Assembly (NCBI RefSeq): GCF_002019605.1
Contig: NZ_KV917368.1
Location: 1,633,958-1,697,957, forward strand
Length of the DNA stretch: 64,000 bases
Source: Alkalihalobacterium alkalinitrilicum
GTDB taxonomy: Bacteria > Bacillota > Bacilli > Bacillales > Bacillaceae_F
Direction of reading: 5' to 3'
Below the pieces are notes generated by a model. It saw only the letters and a program-made list of their open reading frames with translations, did not search any database and was not told where the DNA came from. Within the stretch, counting starts at the first letter, position 1, and every line of letters starts with the position of its first letter. The translations under genes and the position numbers were made by a program. This document shows positions 38,822 through 52,732 of this stretch, piece after piece.

Positions 38822-39305
38822 AAGTAATTCCCTCCGGCTTTCCTGTTGGATAGGCGACCTGTTCTTTTTGATCCCCAATCCAAGCTTCTCCATCTTCCCA
38901 ATGTTCTTTTTTCCAAATTGGGACAATTTCCTTAATTCTTTCAATCGCATACCGTGAAGCTTCATAAGAATCAGCTCTATGTGGCGTCGAAACAGCCAAA
39001 ACCACAGCAACATCACTTATTTCAAGTCTACCAATTCGGTGTGTAATGGCTGTTCTCGCCTCAGGCCATTTTTGTTCGATTTCTTCACCGATTTGTGCCA
39101 ATTTCTTCTCAGCCATTGATACATATGCTTCATACTGTAAAAATAACGTCTTTTTTCCTTTTGTTAATTCTCTCACTGTGCCGATAAATGTATTAATAGC
39201 ACCAGCATGAGGATGAATTACCTTTCCTACTACTTCCTCTATATGAATAGGTTGATCTGTAATTGTAAAATTCTTCATTACGATCTTTTTCACTCCTTTA
39301 CTCAT
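38814..39305 (-). CDS. moaE: MoaE, large subunit of molybdopterin synthase
   Basis: A 163-residue protein (or 154 from the inner ATG 39278, which gives the usual MKNFTITDQPI start). Hallmarks: HPHAGAINTFIGTVRELTKGK, LQYEAYVSMAEKKL, ITHRIGRLEISDVAVVLAVSTPHR, IWKKEHWEDGEAWIG with the active-site Lys. It adds dithiolene sulfurs to precursor Z with MoaD. The first ATG overlaps the moeA stop (ATGA). Confidence 0.93.
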   Translation of the reverse strand: MSKGVKKIVMKNFTITDQPIHIEEVVGKVIHPHAGAINTFIGTVRELTKGKKTLFLQYEAYVSMAEKKLAQIGEEIEQKWPEARTAITHRIGRLEISDVAVVLAVSTPHRADSYEASRYAIERIKEIVPIWKKEHWEDGEAWIGDQKEQVAYPTGKPEGITYD

Positions 39306-40567
39306 TCATTTACTAAACCTTCTTCAAATCGTTCGAGCCACAAGATCGTTACATGTTCGCATTCATTTATTTTCTTTGTTCGAGCTGGTATGTATAATAA
39401 AACATTCGCTTCTATTAATGCAGAAATGATATCAGACTTGTCCCGTCCAACCGAAGATACATACACTTGGTGGCCGCGAACTTCCGCTTTTGCTCTCGTA
39501 AACCTGGCAAATGGGTTACCCATCGTGATGTCATGCTCAATGATAGCGCTAGAACGTGATAAATGCACCTTCGTAGCTCCTAATGCTGTTTTTAAAACAG
39601 GTCTTGCAAAAAGTTCAAATCCGACATAACATGCAGCTGGATTTCCTGAAAGACCGAAAATCCATTTATCCTTCCATGTTGCAACTGTAGTAACACTTCC
39701 AGGACGCATCGCAACTTTATTAAATAGTACTTTTGCATTCAATTCTTTTAAAATATCTTGAACAAAGTCAAAATCACCAACAGAAGCTCCCCCAGTTGTC
39801 ACTAAATAATCGACTTCTTCAAGTGCAGTTAAAACAGACTTATAACATAATTCGTATTCATCTGGTAGAATACCTAAATATTTAGGGATCGCTCCTAAGC
39901 TTTTAATTTGCCCTAATAACATATAAGAATTACTATTTCTGATTTTTCCTGAAACAAGTGGGGAATCGACAGGTAATAATTCCGTTCCTGTGACAAAAAC
40001 ACCAATGACAGGCTGTTTATATACTTTTACTTGTGCATAACCGAATGTAGCTAAAATCGACATTTCTCCTGCGGAAATACGCCGTCCTCTTTTTGCTAAT
40101 ACCGCATCTGCAGCAATATCTTCACCCCTCCGTGCGACATTAGTATTTTTTTCAATGGGCCGATTTACTTTAATCCACGTTTCCCCGTCTTTGATTTCTT
40201 CTATTGCTATTTCAAGTGCCACGACAGAATCTGCCCCTTTTGGCATTTGTGCGCCAGTCATAATTCGGATCGCTTCGCTTTCGTTTACTTTTCGATTTGG
40301 AGTATCTCCAGCGCCGATCCGATCAACAACTTTGAAATAAACAGGATTTTCAAATGAAGCGTTTACTGTTTCTTCAGATTTAATTGCAAACCCATCAAAG
40401 GAGGAACGATCAAAATGAGGCACTGGATGGTCTGCCACGATATCCTCAGCCAAATAACGCCCAACAGCATCACTTAAAGGTACCGTTTCTACCTCACCTT
40501 GTTTTGCGGATTGAACAATTTTGTGTATAGCCTCATCTACATCTATTGGTTTTCGTTCTTCAATCAT
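39302..40567 (-). CDS. moeA: MoeA molybdenum insertase, paralogue 1
   Basis: A 421-residue MoeA/gephyrin E-domain protein: HFDRSSFDGFAIKSEE, RIGAGDTPNRK, RIMTGAQMPKGADSVVALE, VFVTGTELLPVDSPLVSGKIRNSN, DYLVTTGGASVGDFDFV and FGLSGNPAACYVGFEL. It transfers molybdate (or tungstate) into the pterin dithiolene. AAGGAGAG precedes the ATG. First gene of a four-gene operon moeA-moaE-moaD-moeB, separated from moaA by 242 bp, in which I see no clear element. Confidence 0.9.
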   Translation of the reverse strand: MIEERKPIDVDEAIHKIVQSAKQGEVETVPLSDAVGRYLAEDIVADHPVPHFDRSSFDGFAIKSEETVNASFENPVYFKVVDRIGAGDTPNRKVNESEAIRIMTGAQMPKGADSVVALEIAIEEIKDGETWIKVNRPIEKNTNVARRGEDIAADAVLAKRGRRISAGEMSILATFGYAQVKVYKQPVIGVFVTGTELLPVDSPLVSGKIRNSNSYMLLGQIKSLGAIPKYLGILPDEYELCYKSVLTALEEVDYLVTTGGASVGDFDFVQDILKELNAKVLFNKVAMRPGSVTTVATWKDKWIFGLSGNPAACYVGFELFARPVLKTALGATKVHLSRSSAIIEHDITMGNPFARFTRAKAEVRGHQVYVSSVGRDKSDIISALIEANVLLYIPARTKKINECEHVTILWLERFEEGLVNE

Positions 40568-41858: not shown

Positions 41859-43781
41859 TTAATCATTATAATATATCACTTCTCCTGTTTGTTCCGTTTT
41901 ATAACCACCTAATACCTCTAACTCATCAGAAAATGGTTGCGATCGAATCATATCGACTAACATCTGCCCTTGATCACTTTCAAAAAAAGATTTACTCATT
42001 AATAAATCATAAGATTCATAGGCAACAGGAATAAAATCAAGCTGCAAAGCGTTCGCTGCAGCGTAAACTCCTAATCCAGCATCAGCCGAACCACTTTTTA
42101 CAGCAGCGGCAATACTAAGATGGGAGTACATCTCTCGATTGTACCCTTTAATCCTTTCTGACTCAATCAAAGCTTCTTTAAGGAGAAAATCAAAAAGCAA
42201 CCGTGTTCCAGCACCTCTTTGACGATTAACATACAAAATATCTTTTTCAATAATATCTTGAAGGGAATGGAGTTGCTTCGGGTTTCCTTTAGGTACTATC
42301 CAGCCTTGTTCCCGTTGTAAAAATTTAAGGAGAACAACACTTTCATTTTTCAAATACTGCTTTAAGAACGGAATATTATACTCTCCTGTTTCGCTATGCA
42401 ACAAGTGAATACCCGCTACATGTGCTTCTCCCTTTTTAATTGCCATAATCCCTGCCATACTGCCTATATGAGAGGAGATAATTTTCTTTGAAACATCTTG
42501 CGCTTTAATTAAAGTCGATAAGACGTCGATTGACAAGTCATGACTTCCAGAGAACAGAATTGCATGTTTTATTTCATCGATTGGTTTGTACAATTCAACT
42601 TCCACTTCATCTCCCTGTTCATATCCTAAGCTGTTACTCGGCACAACTAATAATCCATCTGCACGAACGAGTGACATCGTCACTCCTGCTCCTCGAGTTA
42701 ACGGATTGGCCATGAAACGACCGTTGACATAGCCGATATTGATACGAATAAAATCTTCAGATCCCATTGTTGATACAATTCTTCTACCTAATTGAACTTT
42801 CAATTTTTCTCTTCTCGGTACGGGAACTCCTAAATAACGACATATTAAAGGTTGTACAAACCATTCAAGTGTTAAATAAGCAGAAACTGGGTAACCCGGA
42901 AGTCCAACAACAATCGTATCCCTTACCTTTCCTAATACGACAGGTTTTCCAGGTCTTGTTGCTACACCATGGGTGAAAACTTCTCCTAGTTCAGCAATAA
43001 TATGAACGGTATAGTCCTCAGACCCCGCAGAAGAACCTGCATTAACTAAGACAATATCCGATTCTTCTACCGCATCCAGGATAGCTTTTTTTAGAAGTTC
43101 AGGGTCGTCTTTAGTAATTCCTTTCTTAACAGGGGCCCCTCCCCATTCCTCAACATAGCTTTGAAATACTGTACTATTAAAGTCAATAATGTCGCCACGT
43201 TTTACATCTACCGTAGGCTGAACTAACTCATCACCCGTTGGAATAATAGAAACAACTGGTTTTTTTACAACAGGAATACATAAAATACCCCCCGCAAGTA
43301 AAGCCCCTAAATCGACAGGTCGCAAGCGGTGCCCTTGTGGGAATAACATCTCTCCACTAACGACGTCTTCTCCAACGGGACGAATATGTTGCCACGGAGT
43401 AGCAGGCTCTATTATTTCAATCTTTCCTTCTCCTAACTCTTGGATATGCTCAATCATGATGACCGCATTATATGGTTCAGGGATTGGGTCCCCTGTATCG
43501 ACATAAACAAAATGAAGTTCTTCAACTAGTTGTAACGGTTGTTTTTCATGGGCACTATACGTGTCCTCCGCGTTAACGGCAATACCATCCATCGCTGATG
43601 CGTGGTAATGCGGCATCGAAAGATTTGCATAAATCGGTTCAGCGGTAATTCTCCCTCTAGCTTCAGCCGTCTCCACTAACTCTACTTCACGTTGAAATTG
43701 AAATTCATTAAATAATTGTTTTAATGCAATATCTCGTGGCTTATCTTCTAAATAAATCTTTCTCTTTAATAGTTCTCCCAT
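41859..43781 (-). CDS. MoeA fused to a C-terminal periplasmic-binding-protein-like domain (paralogue 2)
   Basis: A 640-residue fusion. Residues 1-405 are MoeA: SMPHYHASAMDGIAVN, VDTGDPIPEPYNAVIMIEH, IIPTGDELVQPTVDVKRGDIIDFN, VNAGSSAGSEDYT and VGLPGYPVSAYLTLEW. Residues about 410-640 form a substrate-binding-protein-like (LysR-effector/TupA-like) domain with FSGSHDLSIDVL, REQGWIVPKGNPK and NRQRGAGTRLLFD. That domain is clearly homologous to the sensor half of the regulator at 51537-52460. Such fusions occur in archaea and Firmicutes. Handling or sensing of an oxyanion is inferred. It lies in an operon with the third MoeA and moaA. Confidence 0.88.
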   Translation of the reverse strand: MGELLKRKIYLEDKPRDIALKQLFNEFQFQREVELVETAEARGRITAEPIYANLSMPHYHASAMDGIAVNAEDTYSAHEKQPLQLVEELHFVYVDTGDPIPEPYNAVIMIEHIQELGEGKIEIIEPATPWQHIRPVGEDVVSGEMLFPQGHRLRPVDLGALLAGGILCIPVVKKPVVSIIPTGDELVQPTVDVKRGDIIDFNSTVFQSYVEEWGGAPVKKGITKDDPELLKKAILDAVEESDIVLVNAGSSAGSEDYTVHIIAELGEVFTHGVATRPGKPVVLGKVRDTIVVGLPGYPVSAYLTLEWFVQPLICRYLGVPVPRREKLKVQLGRRIVSTMGSEDFIRINIGYVNGRFMANPLTRGAGVTMSLVRADGLLVVPSNSLGYEQGDEVEVELYKPIDEIKHAILFSGSHDLSIDVLSTLIKAQDVSKKIISSHIGSMAGIMAIKKGEAHVAGIHLLHSETGEYNIPFLKQYLKNESVVLLKFLQREQGWIVPKGNPKQLHSLQDIIEKDILYVNRQRGAGTRLLFDFLLKEALIESERIKGYNREMYSHLSIAAAVKSGSADAGLGVYAAANALQLDFIPVAYESYDLLMSKSFFESDQGQMLVDMIRSQPFSDELEVLGGYKTEQTGEVIYYND

Positions 43782-43793
43782 AGGACTGACCCC

Positions 43794-45026
43794 CTAACGA
43801 AATAAATAAACTGAAACGACTTCCCCTTTGCTAATTCCTTCTTTTTTTGAAGGGATTTCTACCATCCCATCACTTTGCACTAATGTGGATATTAAACCAG
43901 ATTTTCCAAGGACCGGGTAAGCCCACCATTGATTTTCCTTTTTCTCTAGTCTAACACGAATATAATCTGACCTTCCTGGACTTGAAGGAATATTTTGCGA
44001 GATATGCGCTTCCACCGTTTTTGGTCGTTCCTTTTCTTTGGAGCCATTTAATTGGATGATTATTTGTTCACCAAATAATGTATAAATTATGACCGCAGAC
44101 GCTGGATGACCAGGTAACCCTAAAACTGGTTTATGATAAGCCATCCCAAAAATTGTTGGTTTTCCTGGTTTAATTGATACTCCATTTACTAATATGCCTG
44201 GTTCGCCCAAAGCTTGGATCACTTCTGTTGTGAAATCTTTCGCACCAACAGAACTTCCTCCAGACATGACTAATAAATCAACTTCGTTATACATTTCTTT
44301 GGCTTTAGTGTAAAAAGATTCATAGTCATCAGCGACAATGCCACCGTTGATGATTTCTGCTCCCCATTCTTTTGTTAATGTGGCAATCGTTAATTGATTA
44401 ATATCTCTAACTTGTCCGATCTGTAAGTTCTCTGTATCATAAGGCATAATCTCATCACCTGAAGATAAATAACCTACTTTTACTTTGCGATAGACGCTAA
44501 CAAAAGTAATGCCTATGGCTCCTAAAATACCTAGCTCTTGTGATCTTAGCTTTGTTCCTTTTTTTAAGAGAATTTCACCTTCCTTGACATCTTCACCGAC
44601 TGAAATAATATTTTCGCCTGGAGCTACTTGCTTATATGTATTTAAAAGGCCATCCATGTCTTCACAATGCTCAATCATAATAATACTGTCACAGCCAGGG
44701 GGGATCATCCCACCAGTCGGGATGGACATTGCTTCTCCACCCCCTAACCGCATTTTAACTTCTTCTCCCATTTTGATTTCATATGTAACCGTTAAAAAGG
44801 ATGGCATTGACTCAGATGAACCATATGTATCTTTTGCATATACCGCATAACCATCTACTGTAGACCTGGCAAAAGCGGGAACATTTTCTTTGGAGACAAT
44901 GTCCTCTGCTAATATATATCCAAACGCATCCTGTAAAGATAAGGTAACAACTTCTTTAATAGGCTGAACCATATTTTTAATTATTTCTTTTGTTTCTTCA
45001 ACTGTTTTTACATCGTAAAACAACAT
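43794..45026 (-). CDS. MoeA/Glp-like molybdotransferase, paralogue 3
   Basis: A 410-residue MoeA protein: PAFARSTVDGYAVYAKDT, SIPTGGMIPPGCDSIIMIEH, GYLSSGDEIMPYDTENLQIGQVRDIN, DLLVMSGGSSVGAKDFT and LGLPGHPASAVIIY. This is the Glp subtype often linked to tungsten or AOR-type operons. Strong AGGAGG upstream. It is the first gene of the operon Glp - MoeA-PBP - moaA, divergent from the second moaD. Confidence 0.9.
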   Translation of the reverse strand: MLFYDVKTVEETKEIIKNMVQPIKEVVTLSLQDAFGYILAEDIVSKENVPAFARSTVDGYAVYAKDTYGSSESMPSFLTVTYEIKMGEEVKMRLGGGEAMSIPTGGMIPPGCDSIIMIEHCEDMDGLLNTYKQVAPGENIISVGEDVKEGEILLKKGTKLRSQELGILGAIGITFVSVYRKVKVGYLSSGDEIMPYDTENLQIGQVRDINQLTIATLTKEWGAEIINGGIVADDYESFYTKAKEMYNEVDLLVMSGGSSVGAKDFTTEVIQALGEPGILVNGVSIKPGKPTIFGMAYHKPVLGLPGHPASAVIIYTLFGEQIIIQLNGSKEKERPKTVEAHISQNIPSSPGRSDYIRVRLEKKENQWWAYPVLGKSGLISTLVQSDGMVEIPSKKEGISKGEVVSVYLFR

Positions 45027-45183
45027 CTATGTAACCTCCTCTGATGAAAAAAACCTTTTAATATTATTTCTCTATACTTCGTATTTTTCCCTGCCTTTAT
45101 TATAAAATTTAAAATTGCTGCAATTGTATTGAGTATTAATACAATTCATATGATAATAAAGAAAAAGGACAGAGGTGAAGACA

Positions 45184-45459
45184 TTGAATATAAAAGTATT
45201 TGCTAACTTTCGAGAAATTTGTGGAGGCAAGATCGTTTCGATGGAAGTTGTCGACGAAGAAACGATCTTAAATATCCTTAAACAATTAATCACCAAATTC
45301 CCCCAAATGCAGGAAGAACTTTTTACAGAAACTTTCGAGTTAAAACCGATGATTCACGTCTTTATTAACGGTAAGAATGTAATGTACTTAAATGGCCTTG
45401 ATACAAAAGTGTCCCAACAAGATACTGTCGCTCTTTTCCCTCCTGTAGCTGGGGGATAA
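45184..45459 (+). CDS. MoaD/ThiS-family sulfur carrier, copy 2 (AOR-linked)
   Basis: A 91-residue beta-grasp protein starting MNIKVFANFREICGGKIVSM and ending with VALFPPVAGG, so it keeps the C-terminal Gly-Gly needed for adenylation and thiocarboxylation. It is longer than MoaD copy 1 because of an insertion around LFTETFELKPM. I chose TTG 45184 with GAGGTG upstream; GTG 45175 lies within that site. It probably serves the AOR cofactor branch together with the second MoeB. Confidence 0.85.
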   Translation: MNIKVFANFREICGGKIVSMEVVDEETILNILKQLITKFPQMQEELFTETFELKPMIHVFINGKNVMYLNGLDTKVSQQDTVALFPPVAGG

Positions 45460-45467
45460 GGTCTGTT

Positions 45468-45737
45468 ATGTATAAAGAAAAGCTAGAAATAAGAGGCATT
45501 CATCGGCAAAATATACTAGAGTATTTGCGGCAATTAGGAGGAAAAGGAAAACTAGAATTAGAGGAAGACGTATTTACCACAGAACAGTGGAAATGTATTG
45601 TTTCTCCTGAAAAATTTATTCGCATGTTTCAATCAGATATTCCTATAGTGTTCGTCACGTTTTATTCCGAAGAAGAAGAGGCATTAACAGTGGTGCTACG
45701 ACGTTTTCGGTTGAAAACATTCAGAGCAGGTGGCTAA
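45468..45737 (+). CDS. Small protein next to MoaD, resembling the MoaD-related C-terminal domain
   Basis: An 89-residue protein starting MYKEKLEIRGIHRQNILEYL, with LEEDVFTTEQWKCIVSPEKF and a C-terminal RRFRLKTFRAGG. The pattern resembles the separate C-terminal domain that some thermophile MoaD-related proteins carry (DUF1952-like), here as its own gene eight bases after moaD2. It also ends in Gly-Gly. Function unknown. A role in the AOR cofactor is inferred from position. Confidence 0.65.
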   Translation: MYKEKLEIRGIHRQNILEYLRQLGGKGKLELEEDVFTTEQWKCIVSPEKFIRMFQSDIPIVFVTFYSEEEEALTVVLRRFRLKTFRAGG

Positions 45738-45791
45738 TTATATTACTAGAAAATAAAAAATGAGTGGGACAAAACTCAGTAAATAAAAAAT

Positions 45792-45835
45792 AGAGTGGTA
45801 CTTAGCCCAGTGAGTTAGGCAAGTACCACTCTTTA
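45792..45835 (+). terminator. Terminator of the moaD2 operon
   Basis: AGAGTGGTACTTAGCC pairs with GGCAAGTACCACTCT (one bulge), followed by a T run. Confidence 0.8.
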
Positions 45836-46035
45836 TTCTTAAATTCAATAATTTTAGAAACTTTAGTACGTTTTGCCCAATGGAAATACAAAAAAACGGC
45901 TACGAATGAAGAAGTCACCCACGGCCAATTAGCTGACCTTCTCATACATACCAGCCCCGCTGCGAAGTTCGTGCAGAATGCAAGGACTCATTCCAATTCC
46001 AAGTATATTTTTGACACAGCGGTGAAAAATCCAAC

Positions 46036-46077
46036 AAAAAAGTTCCGAACATCGTTTTTTGATGTTCGGAACCTTTT
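46036..46077 (-). terminator. Terminator of the aor transcript
   Basis: Perfect GTTCCGAACATC / GATGTTCGGAAC stem with a T6 loop and A/T runs on both sides. Bidirectional. Confidence 0.8.
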
Positions 46078-46132
46078 AACAATTATTTTGGGCTAGTTAA
46101 GTCCCAGCCTCATTTTAATAGTGAGCCTTCTA

Positions 46133-47956
46133 CTAAGCTCCAATTTCAGCTGGTGGAATATCTAACTCTTTTAGTTTTTCAGAAGGAACTGTTCCTGCTT
46201 CCCAACCTCTTGCAGCATAGTATTCTTTTAACATGATCTCAAGATGACTTACTTCACCTTCTGAACCAGCTTGTGCTGGTTCAGTTAAAAACCGTTTCGG
46301 TAACGTGTCCGTAGAACCGTCAAATCCAGCTAAATTGTTGAAATAACGTTCTAGGTTATATACGCGTTCACCAATTTTCATAATATCGTCACCTGTTAAA
46401 TCAATACCAACTACTGCCGAGTACTGTTCAGCGTAATGATCTGGGTTTTCAGCAAACGCAGAAAACTTACATAAATCAAGTGAGTCTGAAAAAGCATGAA
46501 GATCCTGGAAAATTTTTAATAATTCACCTTTTCCTTCAGGCTCTAGACGATTAGTTGGCTCGGGAATACCTGCAATTTCACTAGCAACCGTATAGCCTCG
46601 TAAGTGACATGCACCACGGTTACTTGTAGCAAAACCTAAGCCAATCCCTTGAATTCCTCGTGGGTCATAAGCTGGAATTGCTTGGTTTTTAACTACCATC
46701 GCCATGTTCGGATCACCAAATTGCTCAGCAGCACGACCAGGACCATCAGCTAAAATGTCTCCAATTCCTTCACGGTTAACAATTTTTTCAACCCAAGCAA
46801 TCATCGTATCGACATCGCCCCAGTCTAAACGATCTTTTGTTAACCCCTTCTCATACGCTTCCATCGCTGTAGAGAAAGCATTTCCTAATTCAATTGTGTC
46901 CATTCCATATTCATTACAGAGATTAATCATGAAAGCAACTGCTTCTTTATTCGAATGACCACAGTTTGGACCAAGTGCCCAAGCCGATTCATATTCAAAG
47001 CTCTCTACTCTCGTTTTGTATTTACCTTCTTTAACTTCTACTTCAATCTTACAGGCCACAGGACAGGCATGACAGGTCGGATCAGCCACTTTAAGTTCAG
47101 CATTGACACTTTCACCACTTATTTGGTCAGCTGTATCCCATGTCGTCACTTGTGAGTTTTTCGATGGAAGTGCACCTACCTCATTTACGATGTTCATGAG
47201 TACGTTTGTACCATAGACAGATAATCCACCTTTTTTAGGTGCGGTTAGAGCGCCTTCCATAATTGCCTTTAATCCGCTCTTAATAGCCGTAGGGTATTTA
47301 TCAGGTTGAGCAGGTTCAGGCATATTTCCTTTTTGAGCCGCTTTAATAACAATCGCCTTTAAGTTTTTTGAACCTGCGACTGTACCCGTTCCCCCCCGTC
47401 CAGCTGAACGGTCATGCTCATTAATCCAACTCGCATACTTTACAAGGTTTTCACCTGCTGGACCAATCGTCATTACACTTGTATCTTTACCATAGCGGTC
47501 TTGAAGCGTCTTTACAGTTGCTCTTACTCCTTGCCCCCATAACTCAGAAGCATCTCTTATTTCGGCTTCGCCATTCTCTACATACAAATAAACAGGTTTT
47601 GCACTTTTCCCTGTAAAAATCAAGTTATCAAAACCTGACCATTTTAACCTAGCGGCTGTCCAACCGCCCATATGGGAATCGGTAATAGTTCCTGTTAATG
47701 GTGAACGAGTCACTGTACATAAGCGCCCACTCATATGAATTCTTGTTCCTGTTAAAGGTCCAGTCATGACACATAGCATGTTTTCAGGGGAAAGTGGATC
47801 GACGTTATAAATTTTATGATCCATTAGGTATTTAACACCTAACCCTCTTGCACCTACATAATTTTTTGCATCATCTTCATTGATTTGTTTGTACTGTATA
47901 GTCCCATTTGATAAGTCTACCCATGCTTCTTTATTTTTGTACCCACCAAGTTTCAT
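46133..47956 (-). CDS. aor: Tungsten-dependent aldehyde ferredoxin oxidoreductase
   Basis: A 607-residue AOR-family enzyme. It oxidises aldehydes to carboxylic acids, or reduces acids, with ferredoxin, using a tungsten bis-pterin cofactor and a 4Fe-4S cluster. Cluster ligands: CHACPVACK near 290-299 (CX2CX3C) and a Cys in SLDLCKFS near 495, matching known AOR spacing. Pterin-binding segments NYVGARGLGVKYL and SGRLCTVTRSPLTGTITDSHMGG, and the GRGGTGTVAGSKNLKAI loop, are intact. The ATG at 47956 has GGAGGGG upstream. Tungsten rather than molybdenum is inferred from the family and from tupABC nearby. Confidence 0.93.
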   Translation of the reverse strand: MKLGGYKNKEAWVDLSNGTIQYKQINEDDAKNYVGARGLGVKYLMDHKIYNVDPLSPENMLCVMTGPLTGTRIHMSGRLCTVTRSPLTGTITDSHMGGWTAARLKWSGFDNLIFTGKSAKPVYLYVENGEAEIRDASELWGQGVRATVKTLQDRYGKDTSVMTIGPAGENLVKYASWINEHDRSAGRGGTGTVAGSKNLKAIVIKAAQKGNMPEPAQPDKYPTAIKSGLKAIMEGALTAPKKGGLSVYGTNVLMNIVNEVGALPSKNSQVTTWDTADQISGESVNAELKVADPTCHACPVACKIEVEVKEGKYKTRVESFEYESAWALGPNCGHSNKEAVAFMINLCNEYGMDTIELGNAFSTAMEAYEKGLTKDRLDWGDVDTMIAWVEKIVNREGIGDILADGPGRAAEQFGDPNMAMVVKNQAIPAYDPRGIQGIGLGFATSNRGACHLRGYTVASEIAGIPEPTNRLEPEGKGELLKIFQDLHAFSDSLDLCKFSAFAENPDHYAEQYSAVVGIDLTGDDIMKIGERVYNLERYFNNLAGFDGSTDTLPKRFLTEPAQAGSEGEVSHLEIMLKEYYAARGWEAGTVPSEKLKELDIPPAEIGA

Positions 47957-48124
47957 AGTACCCCTCCTCGTAAATCTTTTTCGCTGTTGTATTCTACATA
48001 AACAAAAAAATTCCTGCAATTTTTTGAAAAATTAGATATATATTGGTTTTCAGTATGAAGTATGATATTCTCGTACTAATCATACTAGCGAATATTTCCA
48101 ATTATTCTTAAAAGGGAGTAATTT

Positions 48125-49159
48125 ATGATGGTATTTGATTCGTCCCGCTATTCAAGACAAGTTCTTTTTTGGCCAAATCAAAATAAAGATCAAAAAATAT
48201 TAAAAGAAAAAACGGTGACACTTATCGGAGTCGGCGCATTAGGAACTGTGGTAGCCAACCATTTAGTGAGAGCTGGTGTTGGAACGCTTCGTATCGTAGA
48301 CCGAGATTTCGTAGAACTAACCAATTTACAAAGACAAATGCTTTTCAACGAAAGAGATGTTGAAACTAATGAACCAAAAGTGATTGCCGCAAGAGAAAAG
48401 CTCCTACTCATAAACTCAGATGTTAAGATTATTCCATCTATACAAGATGTTAACGCTAGAACAATTGAAAGTTTAGTAGAAAATAGCGATGTGATTATTG
48501 ATGCTACAGATAATATGGATACAAGGTTTCTAATTAACGATGTTAGTATTAAGCATCGTATTCCTTGGGTATATGGGGGAGCAATCCACTCAAGGGGGAT
48601 GTTTTTTTCAATCCTTCCTGAGGAAACGCCTTGTCTTCGTTGTTTATTTCCAGGTTCACATCATAACCATGGAGAAACGTGTGATACCGTAGGCGTTCTT
48701 GGCCCGTTAGTTCACATTATCGCTTCTTACCAAGTAACCGAAGCATTGAAAATACTACTTGGCTATAAAGAAAAGTTAAATCGTCAATTAAATCAACTTG
48801 ATACCTGGTTTCATGATTACGATGAAATACCTATAGAGCACGCACGAAATCCAAACTGTGAATGTTGTACACAAAAAAACTTTCAATATTTGGATCAGCA
48901 GAGTAACGATATGTTTTTCTCGCAACTGTGTGGACGAGATAGTATTCAAGTTACACCATATACGAAACTCAATATTAATTTAAAGGTTTGGGAAAGCAAA
49001 TGGAAACCACTTGGAAAGGTACTTTGTACCCCTTTTCTATTAAGGCTCCAATACGGAAAATACCAACTCACCCTATTTCAAGATGGGAGACTCCTTATTA
49101 AAGGAATCCAAGATGAGCTTGAAGCAAAAAAAATATATTCAAAATTAATTGGAAATTAG
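48125..49159 (+). CDS. MoeB-type sulfur-carrier adenylyltransferase, copy 2 (AOR-linked)
   Basis: A 344-residue paralogue of the moeB at 37569: VTLIGVGALGTVVANHLVRAGVG, DRDFVELTNLQRQMLF and DATDNMDTRFLINDV. Zinc pairs are CLRCLF and CECCTQ. The same C-terminal extension (LTLFQDGRLLIKGIQDELEA) is present. It is divergent from aor, with which it shares a 170-bp promoter region. It probably activates the second MoaD. Ribosome site AAAGGGAG. Confidence 0.9.
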   Translation: MMVFDSSRYSRQVLFWPNQNKDQKILKEKTVTLIGVGALGTVVANHLVRAGVGTLRIVDRDFVELTNLQRQMLFNERDVETNEPKVIAAREKLLLINSDVKIIPSIQDVNARTIESLVENSDVIIDATDNMDTRFLINDVSIKHRIPWVYGGAIHSRGMFFSILPEETPCLRCLFPGSHHNHGETCDTVGVLGPLVHIIASYQVTEALKILLGYKEKLNRQLNQLDTWFHDYDEIPIEHARNPNCECCTQKNFQYLDQQSNDMFFSQLCGRDSIQVTPYTKLNINLKVWESKWKPLGKVLCTPFLLRLQYGKYQLTLFQDGRLLIKGIQDELEAKKIYSKLIGN

Positions 49160-49236
49160 CGTTTAATGGTTGTAAAACACTACGACATAAGGTGAAAACT
49201 ATTTAGGATTATCCAACCTAATTAGAGCAATCTTTC

Positions 49237-49971
49237 TTAAATTTTATAAAAATCTTTCCATTTCTCAAGAAAAGCAGCCACTTCTTTGTTCGGAGCATCG
49301 ATAACTTTATTTGTCTTGCCATACTGTTTTACTTCGCCATTCAGCATTACACAAAGACTTCTCGTTAACTGTTTTATTTCAATTAAATCATGGCTAACAA
49401 AAAACGTCGTTGTATTTGTTTGTTTCATAATTTCTTTAAAATCTTGAATAAGTTGAGCCTTTGTCGGAAAATCCAAAGCTGAAAAAGGCTCATCTAGAAA
49501 AATTACCTCTGGTTCTAGAATTAACGCTCTCGCTAAATTAACACGCTGAGCTTCTCCACCCGATAATGTCTTCGCATTCTTTTTAGCTAGATGAGAAATG
49601 TTAAACATGTCTAACCAGTACGTCACCTTTTTATTGATTTCCTTTTTTGGTTCTTTTCTTAGTTTTAACCCGATAGCAACATTATGATAGACCGTCGAAT
49701 CAAACAATAACGATTGTTGCATCGCAACAGCAAACCTCCGCCTCATCTCTAAGGAAAAGGTTTGAACTTCTTTTTCTTCACCTTTATAGTAGACAGTTCC
49801 TACCGTCGGTGCTTGTAAAAAGGATAAGACCTTTAATAATGTACTTTTACCAGCACCATTTGGACCAATAACACCCAATATATCACCGCTTACTAATGCA
49901 AAATCAGGAACATTCAATAAGGTTTGTTGATTGGCTTGTACTTTTACATCTTTTAATTGAAGAATATTCAT
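49237..49971 (-). CDS. tupC: Tungstate ABC transporter ATP-binding protein TupC
   Basis: A 244-residue ABC ATPase: Walker A GPNGAGKSTLLK, signature LSGGEAQRVNLARAL, Walker B VIFLDEPFSALD and the switch His in FFVSHD. It powers tungstate import. It overlaps tupB by 4 bp (ATGA). Last gene of the regulator-tupABC operon; no clear terminator seen before the convergent moeB2. Confidence 0.9.
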   Translation of the reverse strand: MNILQLKDVKVQANQQTLLNVPDFALVSGDILGVIGPNGAGKSTLLKVLSFLQAPTVGTVYYKGEEKEVQTFSLEMRRRFAVAMQQSLLFDSTVYHNVAIGLKLRKEPKKEINKKVTYWLDMFNISHLAKKNAKTLSGGEAQRVNLARALILEPEVIFLDEPFSALDFPTKAQLIQDFKEIMKQTNTTTFFVSHDLIEIKQLTRSLCVMLNGEVKQYGKTNKVIDAPNKEVAAFLEKWKDFYKI

Positions 49972-50675
49972 ATTTGCTGCTTCCTTTGTTGTAATGACGT
50001 TAAAATAAAGGTGATCATAAAGGCTAATGTCATTAAAATAAATGATAAGGCTATCGCAATTTCAAAATTACCTTTTGAGACCTCCATCACCATTGCCGTT
50101 GTTAGGATCCTGGTTTCTCCTTTTATATTGCCACCAACCATCATCGCAGCACCGACTTCGGCAAGAACTCTGCCAAATCCAGCCATAATCGCAGCGAGTA
50201 TGGCTAACTTTGTTTCTTTTAATAGTAAGATAACCGTTTGTATCTTTGTTGCTCCGAGCGCTTTGATTTGCATTAACATTTTTTTATCCAATTGTTGAAA
50301 GGCGGTAGAGGTTAATCCAATAATAATAGGTAACGAAACGAGAATTTGCGCCATTATAATCGCCTCAACCGTATACAAAAAACCAAACTGACCTAATGGA
50401 CCCGAACGCCACAATAACATCGTAATATAAAGTCCAGCTACAACAGGAGGTAAGCCCATGCCGATATTTACAAAGATGAGCACTAACCTTCTGCCAGGAA
50501 AAGTTGTTAAACCTAGCAATACCCCTAATGGAAGGCCGATGATAGAACTTATTAAGATTGCTGTTAAACAGACTCTTAATGTCGTTGCGGTAATCTCGAA
50601 AATTTCACGGTCCCCAGTCATAATCATCTCTAATGCTTTTACTATTCCTTCATAAAATAAGTCCATGTTAAACAC
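49968..50675 (-). CDS. tupB: Tungstate ABC transporter permease TupB
   Basis: A 235-residue integral membrane protein with five or six segments. The coupling loop holds LGATKIQTVILLLKETKLAILAA, and FGRVLAEVGAAMMVGGNIKGETRILTTA is highly typical of TupB. It lies 12 bases after tupA. Confidence 0.92.
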   Translation of the reverse strand: MFNMDLFYEGIVKALEMIMTGDREIFEITATTLRVCLTAILISSIIGLPLGVLLGLTTFPGRRLVLIFVNIGMGLPPVVAGLYITMLLWRSGPLGQFGFLYTVEAIIMAQILVSLPIIIGLTSTAFQQLDKKMLMQIKALGATKIQTVILLLKETKLAILAAIMAGFGRVLAEVGAAMMVGGNIKGETRILTTAMVMEVSKGNFEIAIALSFILMTLAFMITFILTSLQQRKQQI

Positions 50676-50687
50676 TCTCTTAATCTT

Positions 50688-51527
50688 TTAGTCAATGTAT
50701 GGAAAAAATAAGGGTTGCCCATACGCATCTACCCCGAATTCCTCTATAATTTCTTGGGCCTCACTACTCACTATAAAATCTACAAACCGTTGTGCTCCTT
50801 CTACATTAACAAAAGAATGCATTTTGTCATTTACTTGCATGACATGATAGATGTTTAATAAACTGTCATCTGCTTCTACATGAATGACCATATGCTCAAA
50901 GTTGTTCTTGTGTGACAGATAAGTTGCTCGATCGGTCAAAACATAACTGTCTCTTTCTGCTCCTACTTGAAGCGTACTTCCCATCCCTTGTCCTGTTTCA
51001 ATATACCAGCTTTCATTCGTTGGCTTTAAGTTAACTTCTTCCCATAAAGTTTGCTCTTTCTTATGAGTCCCTGAGTCATCCCCTCTGGAAACAAATGGTG
51101 CTCCATATTCAAAAATTTTTTTCATTGCGACATGAGTAGTTTCTCCCTGAATACCAGCTGGATCTGTTATCGGACCAATAATAATAAAGTCGTTATACAT
51201 CACACGCTTTCGGTTATAGACAGCTTCACTTTGAACTAATTCATCTTCAGCTTCAGGTGCATGCGTAAACAACACATCTGCCTCTCCTCTTTTTCCCATC
51301 TCTAGGGCTTGTCCAGTACCGACAGCAATAGTCTTAACGTTAAAATTGTAGTTATCCTCAAACATAGGAACTAATATATCTAATAAACCGCTATCTTGCG
51401 TACTTGTTGTTGTAGCTAGAATAAGATCTGACGACGGTTGAGAGGTTGAAGCATCACTAGTAGGAAACGTGCATCCCGTAATGAATAGTAGACTTATAAT
51501 AAAAGAATAGACAGCAATAGACCTCAT
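50688..51527 (-). CDS. tupA: Tungstate-binding lipoprotein TupA
   Basis: A 279-residue lipoprotein (signal ending LFITGCTFP, Cys about 19). The family-defining ATTTSTQDSGLLDILVPMFE lies right after the linker. RVMYNDFIIIGP, FVSRGDDSGTHKKE and WYIETGQGMGSTLQ follow; these segments line the oxyanion pocket in TupA proteins. It captures tungstate with very high affinity and selectivity over molybdate (family knowledge). It lies nine bases after the regulator gene. Confidence 0.93.
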   Translation of the reverse strand: MRSIAVYSFIISLLFITGCTFPTSDASTSQPSSDLILATTTSTQDSGLLDILVPMFEDNYNFNVKTIAVGTGQALEMGKRGEADVLFTHAPEAEDELVQSEAVYNRKRVMYNDFIIIGPITDPAGIQGETTHVAMKKIFEYGAPFVSRGDDSGTHKKEQTLWEEVNLKPTNESWYIETGQGMGSTLQVGAERDSYVLTDRATYLSHKNNFEHMVIHVEADDSLLNIYHVMQVNDKMHSFVNVEGAQRFVDFIVSSEAQEIIEEFGVDAYGQPLFFPYID

Positions 51528-51536
51528 ATGTCACCT

Positions 51537-52460
51537 CTAATAATATGTATTAACAACAACCTTACCTAGCTCAGTGATATCATATCCTGATAATAACGAC
51601 AGACTTGATTTAAATTCTTCAGAACGTATTAATTGATATAAACAATTCAAACATTCTTCATTTTCCGAAGACCACCTGAAAACGAAATCAAAATTTTCTT
51701 CTGTAACAGGGATAAAATGTAAACCTAATTGTTCGGCGGCGGACCGTATTCCAAAGGTAACATCAACACTTCCTCTACTAACTTGAGTGGCAGTGGCTAG
51801 ATGGTTCCATTCTTCCATTCCATAACCTTTAATTTCAATTGGATCAATCTTATGTTGGGCTAAGGAAGCATCAACTAAAAAGCGAGTTCCAGATCCTTTT
51901 TGTCTATTGACAAACGTAATGTCTTTCCTAGTTAAGTCTTGAAAACTATGAACATTTTTCGGGTTGCCTTCCGAGACGATAAACCCCTGTTCGCGAGTAG
52001 CTAAACGGAGAACTGTTATTTTCTCCAGTGTAAACAATTGTTTGATAAATGGGAGATTGTACTCATTTGTATTAGGATCTAATAAGTGAATTGCCGCTAT
52101 ATCCGCTAAACCACGGTATAGCATCATTAACCCCTCTAAGCTACCGATATATGATGGTTGGATAAGAAAATCATTCGCGTACTTACTCACATATTTCGTT
52201 AATTGTTCAACGATAAAATCATGACTTCCTGAGAGGCGAATTGGAGTTATGGAAGGTGATGATATTGTTTCAGATTGAACCTTTTTCATAATAGCTTGAC
52301 TGTTACGTTTATAACGATCTACTTCTTCCTTATCTATTCTCATCTTATTTCCTACTTTAAAAGCATTTAACTCGCCTCGTTTAATTAATTCATACACCGT
52401 ATGTTTCGAAATTTTAAACATTTTTGCTACTTCCTCGGCCGTATAAGCATAGCTGTTCAT
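51537..52460 (-). CDS. One-component regulator: excisionase-type HTH plus binding-protein-like sensor
   Basis: A 307-residue protein. Residues 3-50 form a MerR/excisionase-type winged HTH (YTAEEVAKMFKISKHTVYEL, IKRGELNAFKVGNKMRIDKEE). Residues about 75-307 form a substrate-binding-protein-like domain with LSGSHDFIVEQL, REQGFIVSEGNPKN and VNRQKGSGTRFLVD. The same motifs recur in the MoeA fusion. It is the first gene of the tupABC operon, so it most likely controls tungstate uptake in response to an oxyanion or cofactor state (inference). A 10-bp direct repeat lies upstream. Confidence 0.85.
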   Translation of the reverse strand: MNSYAYTAEEVAKMFKISKHTVYELIKRGELNAFKVGNKMRIDKEEVDRYKRNSQAIMKKVQSETISSPSITPIRLSGSHDFIVEQLTKYVSKYANDFLIQPSYIGSLEGLMMLYRGLADIAAIHLLDPNTNEYNLPFIKQLFTLEKITVLRLATREQGFIVSEGNPKNVHSFQDLTRKDITFVNRQKGSGTRFLVDASLAQHKIDPIEIKGYGMEEWNHLATATQVSRGSVDVTFGIRSAAEQLGLHFIPVTEENFDFVFRWSSENEECLNCLYQLIRSEEFKSSLSLLSGYDITELGKVVVNTYY

Positions 52461-52537
52461 TCACCCCTTACCTCCTCCCAATAATTTCTAGATTAAAGAT
52501 AACTTAATTATCTAAATAATTCAATAACATTTGTTGT

Positions 52538-52567
52538 GTTTTGTTTAGTTTGGTTAAGTTTTGTTTA
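52538..52567. promoter_or_regulatory. Direct repeat upstream of the tungstate regulator operon
   Basis: GTTTTGTTTA occurs at 52538-52547 and again at 52558-52567, exactly 20 bp apart (two helical turns). The region lies about 80-110 bases before the regulator start and is a candidate operator. Confidence 0.5.
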
Positions 52568-52672: not shown

Positions 52673-52711
52673 TAAAAAAAAGAACCGCAGTCTCGTCCTC
52701 GACTACGGTTC
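52673..52711 (-). terminator. Terminator of the MFS transporter gene
   Basis: AGAACCGTAGTC / GACTGCGGTTCT stem on the reverse strand with one wobble pair, followed by T7. Confidence 0.8.
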
Positions 52712-52732
52712 TATAAGCCTATACTGCTGCTT

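Follow-up and report, generated by a model that had tools for sequence, protein, structure and literature searches.

A binding-protein-like domain shared by a MoeA fusion and the regulator of a tupABC operon in Alkalihalobacterium alkalinitrilicum has loops that suggest a tungstate type

The 64,000-nucleotide stretch of Alkalihalobacterium alkalinitrilicum DNA analyzed here (the window) contains a cluster of tungsten-related genes in which two different proteins end in the same type of domain. One is a MoeA fusion (MoeA-PBP), and the other is a helix-turn-helix (HTH) regulator whose gene precedes tupABC, a tungstate uptake operon. A sequence-only reading had claimed that about 230 C-terminal residues are common to the two proteins, one copy sitting on a metal-insertion enzyme and the other on a DNA-binding protein of the tungstate operon. 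This description is borne out in full, and its coordinates are right; both genes lie on the minus strand (Table 1). BLASTP aligns fusion residues 408-636 with regulator residues 74-302 without gaps, with 95/229 identical (41%) and 134/229 positive positions (E 7e-58), and all of the ordered motifs are present in the same order in both: GSHD, IHLL, EYN-I/L-PF-L/I-KQ, REQG-W/F-IV, GNPK, and NRQ-R/K-G-A/S-GTR. Both domains belong to Pfam family PF12727 (PBP_like), scoring 232.7 bits in the fusion and 210.3 bits in the regulator against a curated cut-off of 27. A PF12727 search of the 5.52 Mb genome at E 0.001 returned four matches, these two and weak ones at 30.6 and 29.6 bits; the fusion and regulator domains are the sole strong members in this genome. 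The observation of a shared domain is right, far beyond chance.

Table 1. Features of the tungsten gene cluster, in window coordinates
Feature	Position	Strand	Remarks
MoeA-PBP fusion, 640 aa	41859-43781	-	MoeA domains ~15-400, PBP_like 408-636; MoeA_N, MoCF_biosynth, MoeA_C, PBP_like
Fusion PBP_like domain, residues 408-636	41874-42560	-
Fusion GSHD loop, residues 412-415	42537-42548	-	GSHD in 84/84 MoeA-PBP
Fusion NRQRGAGTR loop, residues 519-527	42201-42227	-	NRQ in 84/84 MoeA-PBP
HTH_17-PBP_like regulator, 307 aa, TaoR/TupR type	51537-52460	-	model mean pLDDT (predicted local distance difference test) 92.2
Regulator HTH_17 domain, residues 6-53	52302-52445	-	PF12728 61.9 bits; TIGR01764 excisionase-type 57.1 bits
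Regulator PBP_like domain, residues 74-302	51555-52241	-	Pfam PF12727, BLASTP
Regulator GSHD loop, residues 78-81	52218-52229	-	between strand 72-77 and helix 82-94
Regulator NRQKGSGTR loop, residues 185-193	51882-51908	-	end of strand 183-186 into helix 191-202
AAC array, seven units in 5-bp steps, putative operator of the regulator-tupABC operon	52533-52565	-	AACAAAACTTAACCAAACTAAACAAAACACAAC, regulator coding strand
Promoter-like TTGAAT - 17 nt - TATCTT	52496-52524	-	by eye, 8/12 consensus matches; 8 bp downstream of array
Terminator-like hairpin	52681-52712	-	gap between major facilitator superfamily (MFS) gene and regulator operon
tupA, tungstate-binding protein-like	50688-51527	-	9 bp past regulator end; sole NCBIfam match NF041772 TupA, 226.6 bits, below cut-off 400
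tupB permease	49968-50675	-	NF038017 ABC permease over cut-off; NF041773 TupB 187.2 bits, below cut-off 320
tupC ATPase	49237-49971	-	open reading frame (ORF); named from place and sequence; same place in relatives
Second MoeA without PBP domain	43794-45026	-	12 bp upstream of fusion gene
Aldehyde ferredoxin oxidoreductase-type (AOR) enzyme	46133-48019	-	PF01314 442.3 bits, PF02730 256.5 bits

Taken singly, both proteins are members of known families. The fusion scores 758.5 bits over residues 6-637 against NCBIfam NF011068 (cut-off 534). Such fusions are described in excerpts of PMC11733289 ("MoeA1", archaeal type), where they are accompanied by TupA in 86% of cases and share one locus with it in 28%, and where the attached domain has already been proposed to capture and channel molybdenum, tungsten, or another solute. 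In genomes with both, the same excerpts place the second moeA adjacent, as it is in the window. The cluster thus resembles the MoeA-PBP loci (NF011068, PRK14498; PMC11733289) in domain order, in the adjacent second MoeA, and in having tupABC and a tungsten-type enzyme in the locus. It differs from them in having a TaoR-type regulator there as well, and PMC11733289 mentions neither TaoR, HTH or other transcriptional regulators, nor PF12727.

The regulator has an excisionase-type HTH_17 domain followed by PBP_like, and its gene is linked to tungstate/molybdate transport through tupA; both are marks of the TaoR/TupR type cited in parts of PMC11980592 and PMC10102598. The gene position before tupABC and the AOR gene in the locus are further likenesses to that family, whereas the only array detected here precedes the regulator's own operon. 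Its named relatives are Bacillaceae; a scan of named genomes with the single protein gave 30 pattern matches, none of them a relative. We take the HTH_17-PBP regulators to be the family of Rajeev et al. 2019. Assignment to the ModE/TudE regulators was rejected since Pfam gave no TOBE match at E 0.001. A LysR-type assignment was rejected because the N-terminus is HTH_17 and not the LysR HTH, though the effector-domain fold is alike; Foldseek with the whole regulator lists many LysR proteins, owing to the HTH-plus-domain layout.

Structure comparison places the predicted PBP_like fold among the type II binding proteins, many of which are oxyanion binders. Sequence-based comparisons gave less: a search of the PDB for a solved relative of the domain returned nothing at E < 0.1 (best E 0.15), the regulator scored 21.2 bits against SBP_bac_11 in the Pfam scan for the TupA and ModA families (cut-off 25), and Pfam listed neither PBP_like_2 nor SBP_bac_11 for the fusion at E 0.001. 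Unlike TupA, ModA, WtpA, and PstS, the domain here is built into an enzyme or an HTH protein and forms a Pfam family of its own.

The two motif loops of the domain vary with the neighboring transporter. We compared 183 distinct HTH-PBP proteins with 84 distinct MoeA-PBP proteins. Of the former, 62 come from the window's order and phylum, 78 from named genomes, and 43 from further searches. The whole sample is a subset of the search listings, made up of the best-scoring loci and the regulators picked for retrieval; the named-genome scan with alignment A2 contributed from the best 80 of 590 relatives. Of the 183 regulators, 148 have tupA or modA no more than 1.5 kb away. All 57 tupA-linked members have GS[HND]D and none has Glu at position 187, where Gln occurs in 48, Pro in five, and Ser, Cys, Asn, and Lys in one each. 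All 91 modA-linked members have xG[QH]D and Glu at 187 (NRE), and GSxD occurs near the motif in none of them. The remaining 35 have neither neighbor or a contig edge nearby, and both loop types are represented among them. For the modA-type sequences, loop 78-81 carries a one-residue gap in one alignment and substitutions in another.

The fusion matches the tup type, as GSHD and NRQ are present in 84/84 MoeA-PBP proteins, and the comparison suggests that the shared domain is of the tungstate and not the molybdate type. When alignment columns were ranked by how well they separate the modA class from the two other classes while these agree with each other, columns 79 and 187 led; no other column splits the classes completely and also keeps the remaining two nearly identical. 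The fusion differs from both regulator classes at columns 115, 120, 244, 218, and 104, among others. A later check of 12 of the 48 matching plasmid records, from other lineages, found Ser79 in 4/4 tupA-linked, 0/3 modA-linked, 3/3 MoeA-PBP, and 0/3 neither-neighbor members. Among these, one MoeA-PBP (L312) has GSHC and NRN, and two tup-linked members (L307 and L309) lack the Asn of NRQ. The sequence-only reading had proposed a shared ligand (tungstate, molybdate, or a cofactor intermediate), and that interpretation is partly supported: the predicted type II fold and the tupA-linked loop type are found in both proteins, for which tungstate binding is a prediction.

All trees left out the motif columns. 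In a quick tree of 104 sequences, the modA class together with six sequences of unknown neighbor forms one branch (99*) and MoeA-PBP another (96*, including one fragment), with tup regulators on both sides. A careful 28-sequence tree again places the modA class on one side of a branch (100/98), nested in a set with five tup regulators of the window's phylum, Bacillota (98/97); its five MoeA sequences do not form one group, and the MoeA-PBP sequences are likewise ungrouped in a tree that includes the plasmid sequences. In that last tree, members from Deinococcus, Thermomicrobium, and Nostoc stand apart from the main modA clade. A single clade of tup regulators was rejected (p value of the approximately unbiased test, p-AU, 0.010), and a single MoeA-PBP clade was not (p-AU 0.121). 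Because a tup clade is rejected and a modA clade is not, the tungstate type extends across separate lineages, and the molybdate switch may have occurred only once.

The window's own domains each sit with their own architecture. In the quick tree, the fusion falls in a starred set of five MoeA sequences and the regulator in a starred set of nine tup sequences, and in the careful tree each is paired with its own architecture at 100/100. A recent duplication or domain swap within the cluster was rejected on these grounds, and the idea of a paired module is weakened insofar as it implied a recent matched pair.

The two proteins do occur together in the window's order. Over 249 genomes, with matches at E 1e-20 and one contig-edge fragment (G145) unclassed, 22 have both a tup-type regulator and the fusion, six the fusion alone, none the regulator alone, and 221 neither, so that the regulator is found in 22/28 fusion genomes (Fisher p 2e-26, a value that ignores kinship). 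No such link appears for the mod-type regulator (4, 24, 21, and 200 genomes, respectively; p 0.50).

Upstream of the regulator-tupABC operon lies the AAC array, the sole array of at least three units in the window. One hundred Markov copies of the window gave on average 0.96 arrays of at least three units and 0.01 of at least four, and none of five. A genome scan allowing up to three mismatches found only this array, in four overlapping registers, compared with one match for a reversed control pattern. Among upstream regions of close relatives, 18 of 23 score at least 4 (27 less near-copies, in the same set in which the AAC pattern was first seen and defined), compared with 0 in 100 Markov copies of the set. 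Of 306 other ORF upstream regions in the same loci, only that of tupA in L075 scores 4; there tupA precedes the regulator, and the array thus still heads the operon. Two loci of the same family but another genus (L134 and L135) have AOR, MoeA, MoeA-PBP, and tupABC and no HTH-PBP regulator, and their tupA lacks the array. Arrays of at least four units also precede 9/91 modA-linked regulators, as well as 3/12 of the other tup-linked regulators in the window's phylum. Across 182 loci of at least 7 kb plus the window stretch, we counted 25 arrays of at least five units (best per strand; L122 and L150 are one genome), of which 22 lie upstream of a regulator gene at a distance of up to 160 bp, two precede a modA that diverges from such a gene, and one lies elsewhere (L208).

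The array is likely the operator of the regulator-tupABC operon, judging by its place and conservation. Its site just upstream of the promoter-like sequence fits an activator, and a repressor is also compatible; a consensus scan requiring 9/12 matches reported no promoter-like site at that position. D. vulgaris TaoR is said to act on aor too, with a site at the aor promoter. A wider regulon here, covering AOR, MoeA, or MoaD genes, gained no support: the window holds no other array of at least three units, before AOR or elsewhere, and the genome scan at up to three mismatches found no other site.

We consider it somewhat better than an even bet that the domain common to the two proteins is an old cytoplasmic oxyanion receptor of the tungstate type, with which the regulator senses tungstate and the fusion delivers it. 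Tungstate would enter through TupABC, and the PBP_like domain of the regulator would read its intracellular level. The HTH_17 domain, probably as an oligomer on the 5-bp AAC repeats, would set transcription of regulator-tupABC and so place tungstate uptake under feedback, by activation at low or repression at high tungstate. The PBP_like domain of the fusion would capture tungstate and pass it on to the active site of MoeA, where it would be inserted into molybdopterin for AOR; the adjacent second MoeA perhaps joins the fusion in this step. Regulator and fusion would then be linked in one pathway through the tungstate pool, with direct contact unneeded. The AOR enzyme is the presumed user of the tungsten cofactor; according to excerpts of PMC11980592, its family uses only tungsten in virtually all cases.

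Published genetics of D. vulgaris, as given in parts of PMC10102598, place MoeA-PBP, a second MoeA, tupABC, tupR, and aor in one tungsten pathway. There, a set of 15 genes whose loss aids growth in chlorate includes both MoeAs (the one with PF12727 and the second), tupABC, tupR, and aor; it also holds other cofactor genes (moaA, moaC, moaE, moeB, and mogA), with a shared tungsten-cofactor phenotype, and both MoeAs are required for the Aor tungsten cofactor (cofitness 0.85). The names moeA and moeA-2 are applied to the two genes both ways round in that source. The D. vulgaris set (DVU0951, the MoeA with C-terminal PF12727; DVU2990; tupABC; DVU3193, tupR; and aor) has the same functions as the genes here, but at scattered locus numbers, whereas here they form one cluster.

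Several observations weigh against this reading. That the two loops line the ligand pocket is deduced from where they fall among the strands and helices, and although hhalign sets both on TupA loops, it does so at a probability of 12%. Column 104, in another strand-helix turn that might touch the pocket, is not the same in the fusion as in the regulators, and their pockets may accordingly differ. The strict marker at 187 is weakened by a modA-linked plasmid member (L310) with Pro instead of Glu. Only four of the top 11 splitting columns (79, 187, 80, and 192) lie in the loops, the other seven (129, 161, 198, 245, 240, 92, and 247) lying outside. The link between loops and ion, suggestive from sequence, may have one evolutionary switch behind it, and holding the modA-type sequences as one clade was not rejected (p-AU 0.345). 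The array counts are tempered by the origin of the pattern in the scored set itself; arrays of at least four units precede 0/22 tupA-linked regulators in the phylum of G544 (recorded as a deltaproteobacterium; L182), and the upstream regions of the AOR and MoeA genes in the window hold none of at least three units. In the same phylum, 22 of 144 genomes (148 minus four with ambiguous fragments) have both proteins, 52 only the fusion, 20 only a regulator of either type, and 50 neither, so that the two are independent (odds ratio 1.06, p 1.0). The pairing is therefore characteristic of the window's order rather than general. The paired sensor and delivery module first proposed is weakened by this and by the finding of the array only before the regulator's own operon. 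Finally, excerpts of PMC10102598 reject a molybdenum/tungsten division between the two D. vulgaris MoeAs, and the MoeA body of the fusion has the residues of a molybdenum insertase, Lys279 and Ser300 (mapped on E. coli MoeA), which do not vary across an alignment of 39 fusions; at these positions the MoeA1 of Methylorubrum extorquens, which is selective for tungsten, has Arg and Ala (PMC13197769, in part). The retention of Lys279 and Ser300 makes it less likely that tungsten is selected in the insertase pocket, and the PBP domain remains a candidate for that role.

The possible single modA clade and the seven columns outside the loops are what plain ancestry would give, if the domain bound molybdate and tungstate with little preference and the loop types marked lineages that stayed with tup or mod rather than selectivity. 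ModABC and WtpABC reportedly transport molybdate and tungstate alike (PMC11980592, in part), which lends this account some weight. We nevertheless regard it as unlikely: the tupA-linked sequences are not one clade, yet 57/57 have Ser79; the Deinococcus, Thermomicrobium, and Nostoc members that fall apart from the main modA clade also lack Ser79, a second origin being unproven; and the two columns that unite a complete split with agreement between fusion and tup classes both lie in the loops. The ligand might instead come from the cofactor pathway, as an intermediate or product such as adenylated molybdopterin or the finished tungsten cofactor, in which case the regulator would sense cofactor status. 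This seems distinctly improbable to us, because the loops change with the neighboring transporter, tupA or modA, as is expected more for an ion than for a pterin that both settings share, and because most of the 50 best structural matches bind phosphate, molybdate, or tungstate. That the fusion's PBP domain is a ligand-free structural or protein-contact module is most improbable, since residues 412-415, 519-521, 523, and 525-527 are invariant in the 39 fusions in addition to the conserved GSHD and NRQ, even though some columns that distinguish the fusion, such as His454, are invariant in it as well.

Extending the tungstate-receptor reading to the whole family, PF12727 may be an intracellular tungstate/molybdate receptor whose ion choice lies in two loops, GS[HN]D with a non-Glu residue for tungstate and xG[QH]D with Glu for molybdate. 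The tungsten selectivity of MoeA-PBP would then come from the PBP domain and not from the insertase pocket, and the regulators would have switched from tungstate to molybdate on moving to mod operons, partly keeping the AAC operator. We offer this only tentatively, as a conjecture that could well be wrong. A two-loop code, if true, would bear on how cells distinguish tungstate from molybdate in the cytoplasm; it would account for a binding-protein domain on a tungsten MoeA and could be tested directly by exchange in three settings (tup regulator, mod regulator, and insertase). What this analysis adds to the known families is the two-loop split by transporter neighborhood and the conserved AAC array, which offers a ready footprinting target for this regulator type; both are directly testable and merit specialist attention.

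Other members of the cluster are a MoaD-type protein, a third MoeA, two proteins of ThiF/MoeB-like type, and a MoaA-like protein, the last of these named by eye. Of the three moeA-type genes, the third (39302-40567) has RPGS where the other two have PGK, and PAA where the fusion has PVS and the second MoeA PAS (also by eye). The AOR frame starts at TTG, and relatives have frames shorter by some 20 residues (L131, L134, and L135: 607-609 aa), so the true start is probably downstream.

Related arrangements were seen elsewhere. A locus of genome G372 in the same phylum (L112, 432-10873) combines AOR, MoeA, MoeA-PBP, and tupABC with a tungstate-type regulator, differently arranged; the grouping is thus not confined to the window's order. 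In L126 (7816-15449), a molybdate-type regulator, modA, and modB lie beside MoeA-PBP and a second MoeA, and the same genome has a tungstate-type regulator with tupABC on a separate contig (L082). A tandem pair of molybdate-type HTH-PBP genes occurs in L170 (6986-9000). On a Rhodobacter capsulatus plasmid (L305, 4004-4930), the regulator is annotated as two genes, HTH and PBP_like, near arsenic genes, and looks disrupted.

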